From Nitrosomonadales bacterium (GTDB taxonomy: Bacteria > Pseudomonadota > Gammaproteobacteria > Burkholderiales > Gallionellaceae): a stretch of 64,000 bases of DNA. Each line of letters begins with the position of its first letter. The stretch's first letter is position 1. Below the pieces are notes generated by a model. It saw only the letters and a list, made by a program, of their open reading frames with translations, searched no databases and was not told where the DNA came from. Both the position numbers and the translations under genes were made by a program. The DNA is taken from assembly GCA_016195965.1 (NCBI GenBank), contig JACPYR010000017.1, forward strand, positions 1-64,000, written 5' to 3'. Below, piece by piece: positions 5,115-42,787 of this stretch.

Positions 5115-5234
5115 ATCCGCAGATTTCACAGATTTACACAGATTAAAAATCTTTACACCCTGTTTACTGCTATGCAAATAGGTTTATGGAATTACTTCCG
5201 GTTTAATCTGCGTCAATCTGCGTAATCTGCGGAC
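5115..5234. repeat. Dispersed long inverted repeat (CCGCAGATT family), copy 1
   Basis: TCCGCAGATTTCACAGATTTACACAGATTAAA ... TTTAATCTGCGTCAATCTGCGTAATCTGCGGA. Confidence 0.85.
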
Positions 5235-20845: not shown

Positions 20846-20878
20846 TATCCGTCAATTTTCAAAGAACGATAAGGGCAT

Positions 20879-20944
20879 GTGGGAGCGGCTTCAGCCGCGA
20901 GAGATTTCAGTGGGAAGCGGCTTCGCGGCTAAAGCCGCTCCCAC
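20879..20944. repeat. REP/BIME-like palindromic pair
   Basis: GTGGGAGCGGCTTCAGCCGCGA ... TCGCGGCTAAAGCCGCTCCCAC; related copies at 15503-15528 and 32129-32156. Confidence 0.8.
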
Positions 20945-20947
20945 AGT

Positions 20948-32128: not shown

Positions 32129-32156
32129 TGTGGGAGCGGCTTTAGCCGCTCCCACT
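32129..32156. repeat. REP-like palindrome
   Basis: TGTGGGAGCGGCTTTAGCCGCTCCCACT, same core as 20879. Confidence 0.7.
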
Positions 32157-32456: not shown

Positions 32457-33272
32457 TTAGCGCTGGCAACTCCCGCAATAGAAACTGGAGCGCTGGCCCT
32501 GTTTGATCTGCTTGATAAGTGCGCCGCAATTCCGGCAGGGTTCGCCCGCCCTGCCGTACACCCAATAAGACTGCTGGAAATAGCCGGGCTGGCCGGAGGG
32601 AGCGACGAAGTCGCGCAGGGTGCTGCCGCCCAGCCGGATGGCTTCGCTAAGCGTGGCGCGGATTTCTTCTGCCAGTTTGGCGCAGCGCGGCTGGCTGAGC
32701 TTTCCGGCGGCGAGTTGCGGTTTGATCCCGGCGCGGAACAACGCCTCGTTCGCGTAGATGTTGCCTACGCCGACCACGACGTGGTTGTCCATGATGCATT
32801 GTTTGATGCTGACGCTGCGCCCGCGCGTGGCCAGAAAGAGATGGCGCGTATTGAAATCATTTTCCAGGGGCTCAGGGCCGAGGCTGGCAAGCAACGGGTG
32901 AGTGTGCACATCGCCGCCATGCCAAAGCACCGCGCCGAAACGGCGCGGGTCGCGCAAGCGCATCAGCGTGCCGTTATCGAGGATCAAGTCAAAATGATCG
33001 TGCTTTTCCGGCGCAGCATCTGCGGGCAGGACGCGCAGGCTGCCGGACATGCCCAGATGCAGGATCAGCGTGCCATTGCCGCAATCCATCAGCAGATATT
33101 TGGCGCGGCGCTGGAGTGAAAGTATCACCTGTCCGCGCAATAACCCCGGCAAATTTTTCGGGATGGGCCAGCGCAGGCTGGCGTTGCGGATGACGACATC
33201 CGCAATAGTCAGGCCGGTCAGGTGTGCGGCCAGGCCGCGTCGTGTGGTTTCTACTTCTGGGAGTTCAGGCAT
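32457..33272 (-). CDS. mutM: Formamidopyrimidine-DNA glycosylase
   Basis: [19 protein letters not shown]-terminal zinc finger [26 protein letters not shown]. Confidence 0.97.
33251..33272 (+). repeat. attL-like core repeat
   Basis: CTACTTCTGGGAGTTCAGGCAT, overlapping the mutM start codon. Confidence 0.8.
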
Positions 33273-33435: not shown

Positions 33436-34776
33436 ATGGCAAAAATAGTCAAAGCGGTTAAGGTGAAGCTGACATCGGGCAGGATAGCAGACTTCAAATG
33501 CCCCGCAGATAAGCAACAAGCCTTCCTTTGGTGCGACACTGTGCCGGGGCTGGCCGTTCGTGTAACGGCAAACGGCGCGAAGTCCTACATATTCCAGGCC
33601 AAGGTTAAGGGCAAATCCATGCGCCTGACCATTGGTGATGTGAGCGTATGGAGCATTGCCGATGCGCAAATCGAAGGCCGCCGCCTACAATCGCTGATAG
33701 ATAACGGCGATGACCCGCGCCAAGTGAAGGCCGACAAAGCCGCCGCCAAGGAAGCCGCGAGGCTGGCCAAGGAATCGGAAGCCGCCGCGCTGGTGCTGCA
33801 GGAAGCCCGCGAATCTGTGACCGTGGGTGCGGCATGGCTGGAATATATCGAAGCCCGCAAAGCGAATTGGGGCGTTCACGCTCTTTATAAACATGAGCGC
33901 GCCATGCAAAGGGCAGGACAGCCGCAAAAGCGTGGCAAGGAATTGACTGTAGCCGGTGAACTGGAATCACTAGCCGATGTTCGCCTTGTTGACCTTACAC
34001 CCGAGCGAGTAAATGAGTGGGCAAGCGTTGAGGTGTTGATTCGCGCATCATCCGCACGGCTTGCATTAAAGATGCTTCGGGCGTTTCTATTCTGGTGCGC
34101 CCGACACCACAACTACAAAGCAATCATCGCAAGCAATGCCGCCACAAGCCCTGAAGCCCGCGAAACGCTAGGAAAGCCAAAGGTAAAGAATGACGCGCTC
34201 CAGCGTGAGCAATTACCTGCATGGTTCGCCGCAGTGAAGAGCATCGGCAATCCTGTGATTAGCGCATTTTTACAAACCTTGCTGATAGTTGGTGCGCGCC
34301 GTGAAGAGTGGGCATCACTGCGCTGGGTTGCCGTAGATTTTCAGTGGAACAGCATTCGCATAAAAGACAAGGTGGAGGACTTCCGCATCATTCCCTTAAC
34401 GCCCTATGTGGCGCAATTGCTGGCCGGATTGCCGCGCCGTAACGAGTTTGTTTTCAGTAGCCCCGCATCTATTTCCGGCTATCTTGCCGAACCTTCGGAT
34501 AAGCATAACGAGGCATGTGCTGTTGCTGGTGTGGATGTGACCTTGCACGGCTTGCGCCGTAGCTTTGCAACCCTGAGCGAATGGATAGAAATGCCCGCCG
34601 GAATCGCTGCGCAAATACAGGGACACAAGCCACAAGGGGTGCGTGAACAACACTATATCCGTCGTCCGCTAGACCTGTTGCGTATGTGGCACGTCAAAAT
34701 TGAAGCGTGGATACTGGAGCAGGCCGGGATTGTGTTTGTGCCGGTGCAAGTGGGTTTGCGTGTAGTGGAGAAATAA
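33436..34776 (+). CDS. Tyrosine-type site-specific integrase (P4-like)
   Basis: Arm-binding-type N-terminus (LAVRVTANGAKSYIFQAKVKGKSMRLTIGDV); VGARREEWASLRW and HGLRRSFATLSEW catalytic motifs; Tyr in HYIRRPLD. Confidence 0.9.
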   Translation: MAKIVKAVKVKLTSGRIADFKCPADKQQAFLWCDTVPGLAVRVTANGAKSYIFQAKVKGKSMRLTIGDVSVWSIADAQIEGRRLQSLIDNGDDPRQVKADKAAAKEAARLAKESEAAALVLQEARESVTVGAAWLEYIEARKANWGVHALYKHERAMQRAGQPQKRGKELTVAGELESLADVRLVDLTPERVNEWASVEVLIRASSARLALKMLRAFLFWCARHHNYKAIIASNAATSPEARETLGKPKVKNDALQREQLPAWFAAVKSIGNPVISAFLQTLLIVGARREEWASLRWVAVDFQWNSIRIKDKVEDFRIIPLTPYVAQLLAGLPRRNEFVFSSPASISGYLAEPSDKHNEACAVAGVDVTLHGLRRSFATLSEWIEMPAGIAAQIQGHKPQGVREQHYIRRPLDLLRMWHVKIEAWILEQAGIVFVPVQVGLRVVEK

Positions 34777-34811: not shown

Positions 34812-35135
34812 ATGCCAATAAAAAACATTAAGCCTCTCAAGCCGAGCGAAAAGCTGGCTAAGCAATGGCTCAAGGAGGCTGCCCAAGGCAAACGGCGCTT
34901 GCTCTTTTCTCCACACGCCGAATTGCGAATGCGCCAGCGCAAGATTGGGCGTAGGCAGGTGCTGGAAACCTTGGGACATGGAACCATCAGCGAACCGCTT
35001 CACCAAGATATTCATGGGGACTGGCGCTGCAACATCAGTTGGCAACATGCTGGGATGCGCGTTACGGTGGGCGCGGTATTCAAGCTGCATGAAAATGGCG
35101 AATGGGTAATCATCGCAACGGTATTCGAGGGATAA
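34812..35135 (+). CDS. DUF4258-family protein (putative toxin)
   Basis: LLFSPHAELRMRQRKIGRRQVLETLGHG ... WRCNISWQHAGMRVTVGAVFK, paired with an HTH protein 4 bp downstream. Confidence 0.75.
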   Translation: MPIKNIKPLKPSEKLAKQWLKEAAQGKRRLLFSPHAELRMRQRKIGRRQVLETLGHGTISEPLHQDIHGDWRCNISWQHAGMRVTVGAVFKLHENGEWVIIATVFEG

Positions 35136-35139
35136 AGAA

Positions 35140-35589
35140 ATGTTGAAATATGACGACTGTGGGCTGCGGAATATATGGCTGAAAAATGGCTACCGATATG
35201 AAGTAATCGAAGGGCATGGCAAGTGCTTGGAGATAGCCGACATAAACGGGCTACATCGCACCATTGCCCACCAATTGGTAAATTATCGCAAGCGATTGTC
35301 TGGCGCGGAAATCCGTTTTCTTCGGGTGGAAATGGGCATGTCGCAAAAACGACTGGCCGACTGCATGGGCGTTGACGAACAGACAATTTCCCTATGGGAA
35401 CGAAGCAAACGCCGCCCGACAGTGGCAGCCGAAAGGATGCTGCGCCTGCTTTATCTGGAACATGCTGACGGCAAAACCAAGGTAGCGAAAATGATTGCCC
35501 AATGGAACGACATAGATCGGCAAGAACTGGAAGAAGAATCCAAGCAAGTATTTCAGGAAACAGATGAAGGGTGGCGAATGGCCGCATAG
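35140..35589 (+). CDS. XRE-family HTH protein (putative antitoxin)
   Basis: LSGAEIRFLRVEMGMSQKRLADCMGVDEQTISLWERSKRRP. Confidence 0.8.
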   Translation: MLKYDDCGLRNIWLKNGYRYEVIEGHGKCLEIADINGLHRTIAHQLVNYRKRLSGAEIRFLRVEMGMSQKRLADCMGVDEQTISLWERSKRRPTVAAERMLRLLYLEHADGKTKVAKMIAQWNDIDRQELEEESKQVFQETDEGWRMAA

Positions 35590-36445: not shown

Positions 36446-37786
36446 GTGCAAATGCAGACAATTTTTACTATTCCCGAAACGCTGGCAGTGCTTGAAAAGC
36501 ATACAGGCCGGACATGGACCGCCTCAGAACTTTTCGACATGGTGGGCAGCTATGGGATAAATCTGCACGCCGCAGCGCCGGTAACCGCACAAACCAAGAT
36601 TGAAAAGTTTGTTGACAGCGTTGGCATGGTGCAAAAATTCAGTTTGCCGCCTGCTGACTGTGATTATTTACTTGATCCGTTCAAAGTGCCAAATAGTCAT
36701 TCCGGCTTGGCTGTGCTATTTCCGGCGCAAGTGAAGCAACTTCAAATAAATGGCGAAACCCTGACAAGACACCCAAGCGACCACGACGAAATAGCGGGTG
36801 AAAATAAAGTGTTTATCGAACCCGTGCGAGTAACCAGCGAACAGGTGCGTGTCAAGGCGGAGACACTAGAAAGGATATTGAATAGATTAGGCACGTCACA
36901 ATCCTCTAAAATGAATATGCTGAAACTGGTAAAAGACCAACTGAGGTTTGATGATGAAATGCGTATTTCGTATTCCAGTGTTCGCAAGAATGCAGATGGT
37001 AATCCGTATTACGTCACAGGCGCGAGACAATGGTTGAAGGCCGTTAGCGTAATTGGTTTAATTACGCCCGGGCAATTCCTTGCGATCATGCTGGAAGGGA
37101 TGCGCAACACGAACATCCTCATGCATGGCGGATTGGATGAAAGTTATGAGCAGGAAATAATCACAGCATGGGCTGGGTTCATTCGAGACGCGCTACACAA
37201 TGACGAAATCAGCCCGCGTGATGATGTGACTGGCCTTCCCATCGGCAAGATGAGCTGTGCCCCCCATATGGATATTCTTGATTGTTCTTGGTGTATGTCC
37301 GTATCTGATGCCGTTAAATTGGCCGCTTCTAAGGGCGCTGAAATCGACTTTGTGGCGATAGCGGAACACCTCTACAAAATTTATTTTGAGAACGAAGCCG
37401 CAACCGTGGAGCGGGCTGCTCCCGCCGCGAAGGTGGAAACCGTTCCTGACACAAGCCAGAGCAGTGAAGATATTGAAGAGCAAGCCGCTGCCAATAACGA
37501 AAACAAAATATTAGCCGCACTGTTTGACCCTGTGCCAGTGGACGTATTGGAAATGATGTTTCCTGCTGATGGAAAGTGGAAAAGCTGGACAGATAGAGCC
37601 TCTAGAAACGGGTTAATTAATGCCCGCGAAGGAACCGCAATGTATAACCCTTACAAGGCCGGAATGTGGTTTGTTGTTAAGGGCAGGAAGGGGATGACTA
37701 TAGGCCACTGCCGCCGGAAGCTGGCGAACCATCTGCCTGATCGTTCCCTGGATGAAAAATATCTGCTGACTGGTGAGTTAGACTAA
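36446..37786 (+). CDS. Uncharacterised 446-aa element protein
   Basis: Complete ORF in the same orientation as the rest of the element; no family recognised. Confidence 0.6.
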   Translation: MQMQTIFTIPETLAVLEKHTGRTWTASELFDMVGSYGINLHAAAPVTAQTKIEKFVDSVGMVQKFSLPPADCDYLLDPFKVPNSHSGLAVLFPAQVKQLQINGETLTRHPSDHDEIAGENKVFIEPVRVTSEQVRVKAETLERILNRLGTSQSSKMNMLKLVKDQLRFDDEMRISYSSVRKNADGNPYYVTGARQWLKAVSVIGLITPGQFLAIMLEGMRNTNILMHGGLDESYEQEIITAWAGFIRDALHNDEISPRDDVTGLPIGKMSCAPHMDILDCSWCMSVSDAVKLAASKGAEIDFVAIAEHLYKIYFENEAATVERAAPAAKVETVPDTSQSSEDIEEQAAANNENKILAALFDPVPVDVLEMMFPADGKWKSWTDRASRNGLINAREGTAMYNPYKAGMWFVVKGRKGMTIGHCRRKLANHLPDRSLDEKYLLTGELD

Positions 37787-38023: not shown

Positions 38024-38278
38024 TTGATAATGACGCTTGATAACCCGCAATTCCCAGCAACATGCGCAGCACATAACTTACAAACCTTTCCCCCGCTAGA
38101 GCTTGTCACGCGCCCCACGGTTCCAACTGACCAAGCCGCCTATTACCTGAACCGCAAGCCGCAGACAATGCGCAGCTGGGCCTCGACGGAGAGCGGCCCA
38201 CTTCGCCCGGTGCATATCAATGGCCGTCTTGCATGGCCGGTTGCGGCAATCCGCGAAATCGTGAAAGGGGGTGCGTAA
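38024..38278 (+). CDS. Small HTH / AlpA-like putative regulator
   Basis: PTDQAAYYLNRKPQTMRSWASTESGPLRPVHINGRLAWPVAAIREIV resembles a MerR/AlpA-type HTH. Confidence 0.6.
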   Translation: MIMTLDNPQFPATCAAHNLQTFPPLELVTRPTVPTDQAAYYLNRKPQTMRSWASTESGPLRPVHINGRLAWPVAAIREIVKGGA

Positions 38279-38735: not shown

Positions 38736-41195
38736 ATGGCCGATCCAATACAAGCGTTTTTCGCCGCTATGCGCGAGGCTGGCCTGTCGATTGATGAGAC
38801 GATCACGGCTGATGGTCGGCTACATCGCTTCAATGTCGAGGGCGACAAACGCGGCAAGCGGAATGGTTGGTACGTGCTACACCTTGATGGTCTGGCGGCG
38901 GGTTCTTTCGGTTCGTGGCGTACTGGGGAAAGTCATCAGTGGTGTACCAAGGCCGAGCGCGAGATGAGCAACGAGGAGCGCGAGCAGAACCGCCTTCGTA
39001 TAGCCACTGCCAAGGCCGAGCGTGAAGCCGAAGAAGCCAAGTTGCGCGAGGTTGCGCGCCTCAAGGCTGAAAAGCTTTGGGCGCGTGCGGGTTCGGTCGA
39101 TTCTGCGCATCCGTACCTGGCAAAGAAAGGCATCCGGCCTGTCGGTATCAAGCAACTGAACAACATGCTGGTAGTGCCGGTGCGTGATGCGGATGGCGCG
39201 CTACATTCTCTTCAGTTCATCAGCGCAGATGGTAGCAAGCGGTTTCTGACAGGTGGACGCAAGGCCGGATGTTATGCAGCAATGGGTGAGCCTATGGGCG
39301 CTCTGTGCATCGCCGAAGGCTATGCAACCGGGGTCAGCATCCACCATGCCACTGAATACGCGGTAGCGGTGGCGTTTGATGCTGGCAATCTTGCGGCAGT
39401 AGCCAAGGCGCTGCGCGCTAAATTTCCCGACATCCAACTGATCGTGTGTGCTGATGACGATCACCAGACGCCTGGCAATCCCGGCATCACCAAGGCGACC
39501 GAGGCGGCGCGCGCCGTGGGTGGGCTGCTTGCCGTACCCGACTTTGGCAGCAACAGACCGGACAGCGTTTCTGACTTCAACGACTTGCACCAGCACGGCG
39601 GGCAGGATGCCGTATGCGGCTGCGTAGCGCGTGCAATTGAAGTGGTGATGACTGAGCCTCAAGCTCAAGAGAAAAACGCACCAAAACGCAAAGTAACGGT
39701 TCCAGCTTCGACATCGGAAACTTCGGTTACTGAATCTTGGCCTCCCCTGCTGCTGCCCGGCACGGTACGCCCGCCTGAAATTCCCGCCGACATTCTGCCT
39801 GGCTGGGCGGGTGCAATGGCCGCAGCGGTGGCCGCCGACACTCAGACATCACCATCCGCATCCGTGCTGCTGGCGTTGCCGATGATTGCGGCCTGTGTGC
39901 AGCGCCGCTATGAGGTAGCCCCGCATGGTGATGGCAGTTATCGAGAGCCGTTGTGTTTATGGACCTTGGCCGCACTGCCCAGCGGATCACGCAAGACGCC
40001 GATCCTCAAGGCGTTGTCCGATCCATTGCGCCGATGGGAAAAGCTGCTGGCGGATCGTCTGCGCGCCGAGATTGCCCGAGTCGAAGCGACGCGGCGCGTG
40101 ATGAAGAAGCGTATCGAGGCGCTGGAAGCCAAGGCCGCCAAGGTCGAAAGTTCGACCGAACGCGCCAGCATCCGCGATGAAATCCAGCGGGAGCTGGAAG
40201 AAACGCCGGAGGAACTGAAAGTGCCACGCCTGATGACCGGCGACACCACGCCGGAACGGTTGCAGGAGATGCTGGTAGAACAGCATGAGCGCATGAGTCT
40301 GGTGAGTGATGAGGCCGGAATATTCCTGGTGCTGGGCGGCATGTACAGCGGCGGACAGGCGAATCTGGATGTATTCCTGCAAGCCTACAGCGGATCATCG
40401 GTGCGTGTTGACCGCAAGGGACGTATGGCGCATCTGGAAAGCCCCGCGCTGACCTTCGCCCTGGCCTTGCAGCCGGGCATCTTGCAGGACGTCGCCAACG
40501 ACAAGCGTTTTCACGATTCCGGCCTGCTGGCGCGCTTCCTGTTTTGCATCCCGCAGAGCACGGTCGGCGCGCGCGATGTACGCGCCAGAAATCCCATCCC
40601 GGATCATGTCGCCGCCGCATGGCGCGAAGGCTTGTTTTCCCTTCTGCTTGACGCTGAAAAGCGTCCAGATGAACCTCGTCTATTGTCCTTCACCAATGAG
40701 GCGCGCGAGTGCTGGCTGGACTTCGCGCAGAAGGTGGAAAACGAGCTTGCCAGCGGCGGCAAACTGGCGCATTTCGCCGAGTGGGGCGCGAAGCTGCCCG
40801 GCCAGTGCGCCCGCATCGCCGGACTGATGCAGCTTATCGCCACAGGCCGCGAATCCAAGCAGGTAGGGCTGGACGCCGTACAGCGCGCCGTCAAGTTATC
40901 CGGCTTGCTGGTGAAACACGCTTACTCGGCATTCCGGCTGCTGGGGGCGGACAAGGTGGAAGCAGACGCCATCCATCTGATGGAGTGGATCAAGGCGCGC
41001 GGACTGGATGAGTTCGACAGGAACGATGCGCACAGGGCGATGGAGGGCAGGTTCCGCACCGTGGCACGCCTCAAGGAAGCCGCCGAACGGCTGCACGAAT
41101 GGAATGTATTGTCGCCAGAACTGCGCCGGAGCAACCACAAAGCGCGACCGTCGCCTTACTACCGGGTAAACCACCAGTTATTTGGTAAATCGTGA
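38736..41195 (+). CDS. Toprim / DUF3987 primase-helicase-like replication protein
   Basis: HPYLAKKGIRPVGIKQLNNMLVVPVRDADGALHSLQFI ... CIAEGYATGVSIHHATEYAVAVAFDAGNL Toprim-like; DUF3987-like C-terminal half (LPSGSRKTPILKALSDPLRRWE). Confidence 0.85.
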   Translation: MADPIQAFFAAMREAGLSIDETITADGRLHRFNVEGDKRGKRNGWYVLHLDGLAAGSFGSWRTGESHQWCTKAEREMSNEEREQNRLRIATAKAEREAEEAKLREVARLKAEKLWARAGSVDSAHPYLAKKGIRPVGIKQLNNMLVVPVRDADGALHSLQFISADGSKRFLTGGRKAGCYAAMGEPMGALCIAEGYATGVSIHHATEYAVAVAFDAGNLAAVAKALRAKFPDIQLIVCADDDHQTPGNPGITKATEAARAVGGLLAVPDFGSNRPDSVSDFNDLHQHGGQDAVCGCVARAIEVVMTEPQAQEKNAPKRKVTVPASTSETSVTESWPPLLLPGTVRPPEIPADILPGWAGAMAAAVAADTQTSPSASVLLALPMIAACVQRRYEVAPHGDGSYREPLCLWTLAALPSGSRKTPILKALSDPLRRWEKLLADRLRAEIARVEATRRVMKKRIEALEAKAAKVESSTERASIRDEIQRELEETPEELKVPRLMTGDTTPERLQEMLVEQHERMSLVSDEAGIFLVLGGMYSGGQANLDVFLQAYSGSSVRVDRKGRMAHLESPALTFALALQPGILQDVANDKRFHDSGLLARFLFCIPQSTVGARDVRARNPIPDHVAAAWREGLFSLLLDAEKRPDEPRLLSFTNEARECWLDFAQKVENELASGGKLAHFAEWGAKLPGQCARIAGLMQLIATGRESKQVGLDAVQRAVKLSGLLVKHAYSAFRLLGADKVEADAIHLMEWIKARGLDEFDRNDAHRAMEGRFRTVARLKEAAERLHEWNVLSPELRRSNHKARPSPYYRVNHQLFGKS

Positions 41196-41260
41196 AAGTC
41201 GCTATAAGTTATTTTTAGATAATTTATTTATTATCAATCAGCTACGCCATACAGACATGC

Positions 41261-41355
41261 ACCCCTGTCGATTAAGTCGATTAACTCGATTAACCCAACT
41301 TTCACTATATCGAGGATTCCGGTTAGTCGAGTTAATCGACTTAATCGACAGGGGT
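41261..41355. repeat. Large inverted repeat with GTCGATTAA iterons (candidate element origin)
   Basis: Arms 41261-41295 and 41321-41355 (35 bp, one mismatch), 25-nt loop; arm contains repeated GTCGATTAA / CTCGATTAA units. Confidence 0.85.
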
Positions 41356-41677
41356 AAGGGTTGTGGGCATGTGAGAGAGTTTGAACGACATGAAGTAATC
41401 CACATCGGCAATGCAGCTTGGGTAATGGCCTTATCCTCCTCTCAAAAATCACGGGTCCTTCCCAGGGTTATTCACAGCGGGTCCCATGACCGCGAAAATT
41501 CTCTAGTTACCAACATCCATAAGGGGGTTGTATCGTAGGCGGGGCATTAGATTTGGAGGTGGTGTATATATTTTAAGCAAATGAAAAATGTAATGCTTAA
41601 TTTTTATGCAGCGGGTTGTAGCGGTGTGCAAGGCTAGAATTTTGTGATGTTTAACTTTATGAAGGAGCGTAGCGATC

Positions 41678-42136
41678 ATGGCAACACAACAACAAATAGC
41701 AGAGCACTTGGATTTAAGCCAACAACAGATAAGCAACATCATGGCGCGCCTTGGGATCGACTGGAAAACCGCAAGTATGGATCACGTCCGCATCGCATAC
41801 ATTCGGCATCTAAGAGTGGTGGCCGCTGGGCATGAGTCAAGTGGCGGCGATAGCTTGGTGGCAGAACGGATACTTTCTGAGCGCGTGGATCGTGAACTGA
41901 AGGAACTCACACTTGCCGAGAAAAAAGGCACACTCATCAATGTCGCACAGCTTGAGCCTGAACTGATGAACATGGTGAGTGCCTTCCGTACTGAGCTGCT
42001 ATCCCGTGATGACAAGCTGGCCAGTGACCTTGCCACGCTGTACGGAATACAGGTTGATGTTGCGATACTCAATGAATTCACTAACGCCGCACTGTTGCAA
42101 CTCAGTCGATACGATGTCGCACGGGATAGGGGGTAA
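41678..42136 (+). CDS. Nu1 / terminase small subunit-like HTH protein
   Basis: MATQQQIAEHLDLSQQQISNIMARLGIDW HTH followed by RVDRELKELTLAEKKGTLINVAQLEPELMNMVSAFRTELL, an Nu1-like layout. Confidence 0.5.
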   Translation: MATQQQIAEHLDLSQQQISNIMARLGIDWKTASMDHVRIAYIRHLRVVAAGHESSGGDSLVAERILSERVDRELKELTLAEKKGTLINVAQLEPELMNMVSAFRTELLSRDDKLASDLATLYGIQVDVAILNEFTNAALLQLSRYDVARDRG

Positions 42137-42765: not shown

Positions 42766-42787
42766 CTACTTCTGGAAGTTCAGGCAT
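42766..42787 (+). repeat. attR-like core repeat
   Basis: CTACTTCTGGAAGTTCAGGCAT, one mismatch to 33251-33272. Confidence 0.8.

Follow-up and report, generated by a model that had tools for sequence, protein, structure and literature searches.

An inverted repeat of 9-bp iterons, which lies directly 3' of a gene for a Toprim-DUF3987 primase-helicase in the 64,000-nt stretch of DNA analysed here (the window), is most probably (probability about 0.88) the replication origin, an initiator-binding array, of a phage-satellite-like integrative element of approximately 9.5 kb with a pri-rep-ori layout. A preliminary description had proposed an origin or an initiator-binding site, and this proposal gained support from the recurrence of the array behind other DUF3987 genes, its 9-bp pitch and an adjoining AT-rich stretch, as well as from a predicted winged-helix tail of the protein, a tail residue that tracks an iteron base, and an experimentally proven PICI origin of like layout. 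Sequence comparison documents the array together with its recurrence and pitch, a winged helix predicted at the end of the protein, and the residue-base covariation. The features discussed below are listed in Table 1.

Table 1. Positions in the window of the inverted repeat, its proposed initiator and other features of the element
Feature	Position	Strand	Basis or remark
Left att repeat CTACTTCTGGGAGTTCAGGCAT, at mutM/fpg 5' end	33251-33272		22 bp, 21/22 identical to right copy
Tyrosine integrase	33436-34776	+	Pfam Phage_integrase, Arm-DNA-bind_3; phrog_1
Toprim-DUF3987 primase-helicase, proposed initiator	38736-41195	+	DUF3987 E 5e-97, Toprim_3; PHROG DNA primase and DNA helicase
Initiator C-terminal domain (residues 730-819), predicted winged helix	40923-41192	+	Structure model, fold search
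Arg767, at the candidate specificity column	codon 41034-41036	+	Column analysis
AT-rich stretch (~71% AT), candidate unwinding element	41196-41260		L135 and L008 similar in sequence
Left arm, three iterons (41267-41275, 41276-41284, 41285-41293)	41261-41295	+	Repeat inspection
25-nt spacer separating opposed iteron sets	41296-41320		Commonest spacer in relatives 23 nt
Right arm, three inverted iterons (41349-41341, 41340-41332, 41331-41323)	41321-41355	-	
TerS-like small terminase subunit of the element	41678-42136	+	phrog_57 terminase small subunit, E 3e-21
Right att repeat CTACTTCTGGAAGTTCAGGCAT	42766-42787		22-bp repeat, 21/22 identical to left copy

Sequence and composition of the inverted repeat

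The arms of the repeat are 35 nt each and complementary at 34 of 35 positions (97%), with one mismatch and 25 nt between them, exactly as the preliminary description had placed them. The successive units of about 9 bp that it had noted in the arms proved to be three 9-bp iterons per arm, with the core TCGA in the window, and the distance of about 65 bp that it had given to the DUF3987 gene also held, since the stop codon of that gene ends at 41195 and thus leaves a gap of 65 nt. The left-arm iterons (41267-41293) are GTCGATTAA, GTCGATTAA and CTCGATTAA, and those of the right arm, read on the minus strand from 41349 down to 41323, are GTCGATTAA, GTCGATTAA and CTCGACTAA. The spacer is 60% AT, and the more AT-rich stretch (~71%) lies outside both iteron sets.

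The repeat is far beyond chance. Its inverted-repeat score was 32, compared to at most 8 for shuffles of the same 400 nt, and folding of the single strand gave a z-score of -10.4, with none of 200 shuffles (0/200) being equally stable. The word TCGATTAA occurs in 6 copies in the window, where 1.3 are expected, and 5 of these are within the repeat region. The array is single-copy across the 2.7-Mb assembly; no matching array was seen among 119 other genomes of the family, and a DNA similarity search of plasmids and phages with positions 41196-41677 returned no match. Viral contigs yielded six matches to the exact iteron pair; all were rejected, since each looks like an isolated pair that arose by chance and DUF3987 genes are absent nearby. 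Two further strong inverted repeats are present in the window, at 20878-20945 and at 5116-5233, the former of which (TGTGGGAGCGGCTTCAGCCGCGA...) is REP-type in appearance and resembles sequence near 32131.

As RNA, the repeat would form a very stable fold (-62.9 kcal/mol) just past a stop codon, and the preliminary description had kept a strong bidirectional terminator, which would stop transcription both ways, and a structured RNA as alternatives; the latter could form the 3' end of the primase transcript and protect the mRNA. However, a scan of the region for intrinsic terminators (G+C-rich stem, short loop and T-run) found 0 patterns, the T-run is absent after both arms and the loop is 25 nt long, while Rfam gave no family at threshold and only a sub-threshold microRNA match, lending no support to a structured RNA. 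Neither constant-pitch iterons, which a simple terminator does not need, nor an iteron base that tracks a protein residue would be expected of a terminator, and relatives often carry iterons of the two orientations that do not form a near-perfect hairpin. Termination or RNA structure as the function of the repeat is highly improbable.

The integrative element carrying the repeat

The element occupies a site at the mutM 5' end and is bounded by att repeats with the consensus CTACTTCTGG(G/A)AGTTCAGGCAT. Its joined flanks gave a 523-nt alignment that spans the junction and matches an empty site of a congener (L267). The gene order of the element is integrase, DUF4258, HTH, RadC-like, two unknowns, a small HTH-like ORF, Toprim-DUF3987, TerS and DUF4236, and the likely element genes from int through DUF4236 are all directed rightward, on the + strand. 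Searches against Pfam and PHROG identified no phage structural genes in the element, TerS being the only packaging/structural family, and because of this lack of structural genes its make-up is satellite-like (PICI-like).

The ORF at 38030-38278, considered as a possible counterpart of the AlpA regulator of Gram-negative PICIs, is HTH-like by eye and has no NCBIfam match. The DUF4258 gene and the HTH gene that follows it (34812-35589), the latter similar to antitoxins of the MqsA type (NCBIfam TIGR03830, below cut-off), may be a pair with a toxin-antitoxin or regulatory function in the element. Positions 36446-37786 encode a 446-aa element protein for which Pfam, PHROG, NCBIfam and PADLOC gave no match and which has a weak relative in L149.

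Recurrence of the array behind other DUF3987 genes

Approximately 130 relatives were compared overall. The scan for arrays covered 112 further DUF3987 loci, most of them drawn at order, class and phylum level from Pseudomonadota genomes, and 310 other long ORFs on the same contigs, picked mechanically, served as controls; an array was scored as an inverted repeat with a score of at least 12 and a centre <140 nt past the stop codon. Such a repeat was present in 50 of the 111 DUF3987 loci with enough sequence, compared to 16 of the 310 controls (OR 15, Fisher p 2e-20); a check for the hairpin behind DUF3987 genes of related elements had been suggested in the preliminary description. Upstream regions of the DUF3987 loci contained a repeat of the same score in 5 of 104 cases. 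About half of the DUF3987 loci were without an array at the thresholds used, and none was found behind yfjI, which belongs to a cryptic prophage of K-12. The array of the closest relative (L008, 72% identical) was unreadable because its contig ends 34 nt past the stop codon, and a search of viral contigs for close relatives of L135 found none.

The best period was 9 bp in 71 of 76 arms, though the iteron words vary among loci (TGCTATT, TGCGACA, CCGACAAAA, CTGACAG, TCGCA and others). At L177, the place behind the DUF3987 gene where an origin array would be expected is taken by a hairpin whose near-perfect arms are 65 bp long (GGCCTTGATCATCGTTTCGTCC...) and which looks like an inserted repeat element of seemingly unrelated sequence; this locus was included in the 50/111 count and excluded from the Mantel test and from the pitch and column analyses.

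A separate set of viral contigs, in which most Toprim proteins match the query in the primase part only, was enriched for iterons after the gene (21/63 vs 5/112, p 6e-7) but not for near-perfect dyads (5/63, p 0.10), and the compact dyad therefore seems to typify the DUF3987 group. At L338, L281, L285, L305, L324 and other viral loci, whose primase-helicases are similar to the query chiefly in their Toprim portion, dense iteron arrays (TGTGCAG, TGACACC, TGCAGGA, CGCCACA) were also observed 3' of the Toprim-fused genes.

The genes downstream differ among the DUF3987 loci, and neither the TerS of the window nor the HTH gene at 35140 was found at any of the other loci (0/112 each). As judged from these loci, the array is linked to the DUF3987 gene and not to the neighbouring genes. 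This bears on the reading of the repeat as an operator or autoregulatory site, bound by an HTH protein (35140 or 38030) or by the initiator and controlling the terS side instead of serving as an origin. Palindromic repeats are typical of operators, and the initiators of iteron replicons often autoregulate as well; nevertheless, the array follows DUF3987 where the other genes are unrelated and is located 3', not 5', of the conserved gene, so that such a regulatory role is very unlikely. A packaging site of the satellite (cos/pac, bound by TerS) is the least probable of the readings considered. The terS start is 322 nt downstream of the repeat, and in lambda-like phages cosB immediately precedes terS, but all other array-bearing DUF3987 loci lack this TerS, and separate candidates for TerS-binding (packaging) sites are found between the array and terS in the form of three short GGGTTGT-containing repeats (41358-41373, 41522-41535 and 41610-41623).

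Covariation of a C-terminal residue with the iteron sequence

For the C-terminal domain of the DUF3987 protein, the predicted fold is a winged helix. The last 90 residues of the protein were modelled as H-E-H-H-E-E (pLDDT 78, pTM 0.69), and the nearest solved folds were mostly winged-helix DNA-binding proteins, with modest E-values of 0.01-0.1. The full-length AlphaFold model was poor (pLDDT 58) and served for tail topology only, and a profile search of PDB sequences returned no match.

When the tails of 26 proteins were grouped by iteron type in a discovery alignment, one column contained Arg in 7/7 proteins with GCGAC and Gln in 19/19 with GCTA. Over all array loci, Gln was accompanied by a TA-core in 23 of 26 cases and Arg by its absence in 26 of 27, and no other tail column separated the iteron types as well. 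The corresponding counts in loci outside the discovery set were 8:3 for Gln and 1:22 for Arg (p 7e-5), and in the genuinely new draw alone, which is small, they were 3:1 and 0:3 (p 0.14), with four further Gln and two further Arg loci of that draw agreeing by eye only. Gln pairs with the T-containing cores GCTA and CCTA, and Arg with the G-containing cores GCGAC, CGAC, TGAC and TCGA; neither trait is shared by the sister proteins L138 (Gln, TGCTATT) and L146 (Arg, TGCGAC). Some apparent exceptions were labelling artefacts, as L142 and L011 contain GCTA or CTACA and L351 has a T at the same place, and L195 (Gln, no TA) is a true exception to the rule. The window was automatically labelled as Arg with TA because of GATTA; its core itself is TCGA, which together with Arg767 fits the Arg class.

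Because related loci are not independent, the association was also evaluated on a helicase-core tree from which the tail was excluded. On this quick tree with long branches, at least 7-10 changes of the residue are counted, at least 7 of them on branches with good support. Among independent pairs, residue and iteron changed jointly in 6, oppositely in 0 and without a match in 3 (sign test, p 0.03 only). In a Mantel test, the relation between tail similarity and iteron similarity was significant; the test is not decisive because core similarity contributes too, tail and core not being cleanly separated (partial values 0.21 and 0.155).

It is very probable that the DUF3987 C-terminal domain reads the iterons, because a residue within it varies in step with the iteron, the switch is recurrent and the rule holds in loci outside the discovery set. 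The comparison further suggests that a single tail residue sets which DNA word is read, in that Gln would read T (GCTA, CCTA, CTC) and Arg would read G (the four cores listed above).

Proposed mechanism and implications

In the proposed mechanism, the element would replicate after excision, with the winged-helix C-terminus of the DUF3987 protein binding the three 9-bp iterons of each arm in opposite orientation. By analogy with other initiators, two initiator/helicase assemblies may be placed on the facing iteron sets, one on either side of the spacer; melting could then occur at the AT-rich stretch just 5' of the array or at the spacer, and the Toprim primase part would carry out priming.

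Pfam continues to list DUF3987 as a domain of unknown function although about one tenth of the genomes sampled contain it, and a literature search with limited journal coverage returned no paper tying it to an origin. We lean towards the broader view that DUF3987 initiators constitute a widespread replicon family, characterized by a compact 9-bp-iteron dyad origin and a one-position winged-helix recognition switch. If the origin reading is right, a simple rule, opposed 9-bp iterons just 3' of the gene, would find many mobile-element origins from sequence, and the origins behind the Toprim-fused viral genes (L338 and others) could be located likewise. A one-residue switch would also account for changes of origin specificity in such elements, and repeated joint switching of array and protein would create new origin specificities and hence new incompatibility groups.

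Comparison with known systems

The PICMI satellites of Vibrionaceae are, like the element described here, small satellites with a DUF3987-type prim gene: their core prim is modelled by DUF3987 (PF13148) or DUF5906, and its deletion lowers replication (PMC10803314). They differ in that they integrate at fis and have no iterons described (PMC10803314), whereas the site used by the window element is the mutM 5' end.

The SaPI Rep protein and SCCmec Cch2 both bind DNA 3' of their own genes via a C-terminal domain (PMC7581432). SaPI Rep is an initiator helicase that reads iterons just 3' of its gene, and two hexamers have been proposed (PMC7581432), but it belongs to a Gram-positive element and is a different helicase. 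The C-terminal domain of Cch2 binds dsDNA right after the helicase gene, at a putative origin where inverted repeats are dispensable for binding (PMC7581432). Unlike the initiator proposed here, Cch2 is of another helicase family, and its repeats are 5-nt direct repeats. The alpha protein of satellite phage P4 reads iterons. It is also a primase-helicase-origin-binding protein, acting with ori/crr (PMC6092414), and the comparison is based on its description; helicase family and origin layout are different.

A close parallel is provided by the Gram-negative PICIs, in which gene order is rightward and some members bear terS. In the window element, a specific att site is accompanied by an integrase, 22-bp repeats and an empty site in a congener; gene order is unidirectional and rightward; the pri-rep gene (Toprim-DUF3987) is followed directly by the iteron array, 65 nt past the stop codon; and structural genes are lacking, terS being optional in PICIs. 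The EcCICFT073 element was located in the CFT073 record by position and gene content, there being no annotation of that name. Its 9-bp CTGTCTACC iterons occur in both orientations directly after the primase gene; a pri-ori segment of EcCICFT073 replicates a plasmid, and deletion of ori impairs replication (PMC6092414). As judged from sequence layout, the array architecture of the window matches such tested PICI origins, since in each case an integrative satellite carries, right behind its primase-helicase gene, iteron sets of both orientations with a 9-bp pitch; the DUF3987 nature of the primase is established for the window and not for EcCICFT073. The EcCICFT073 array extends over ~230 bp in imperfect clusters, and in PICIs an AT-rich region has iteron sets on either side (PMC6092414), whereas here a single compact, near-perfect dyad of 95 bp has its AT-rich stretch outside. 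What would thus differ from known PICI-type origins is the compactness of the dyad, its proposed DUF3987 initiator and a putative recognition code.
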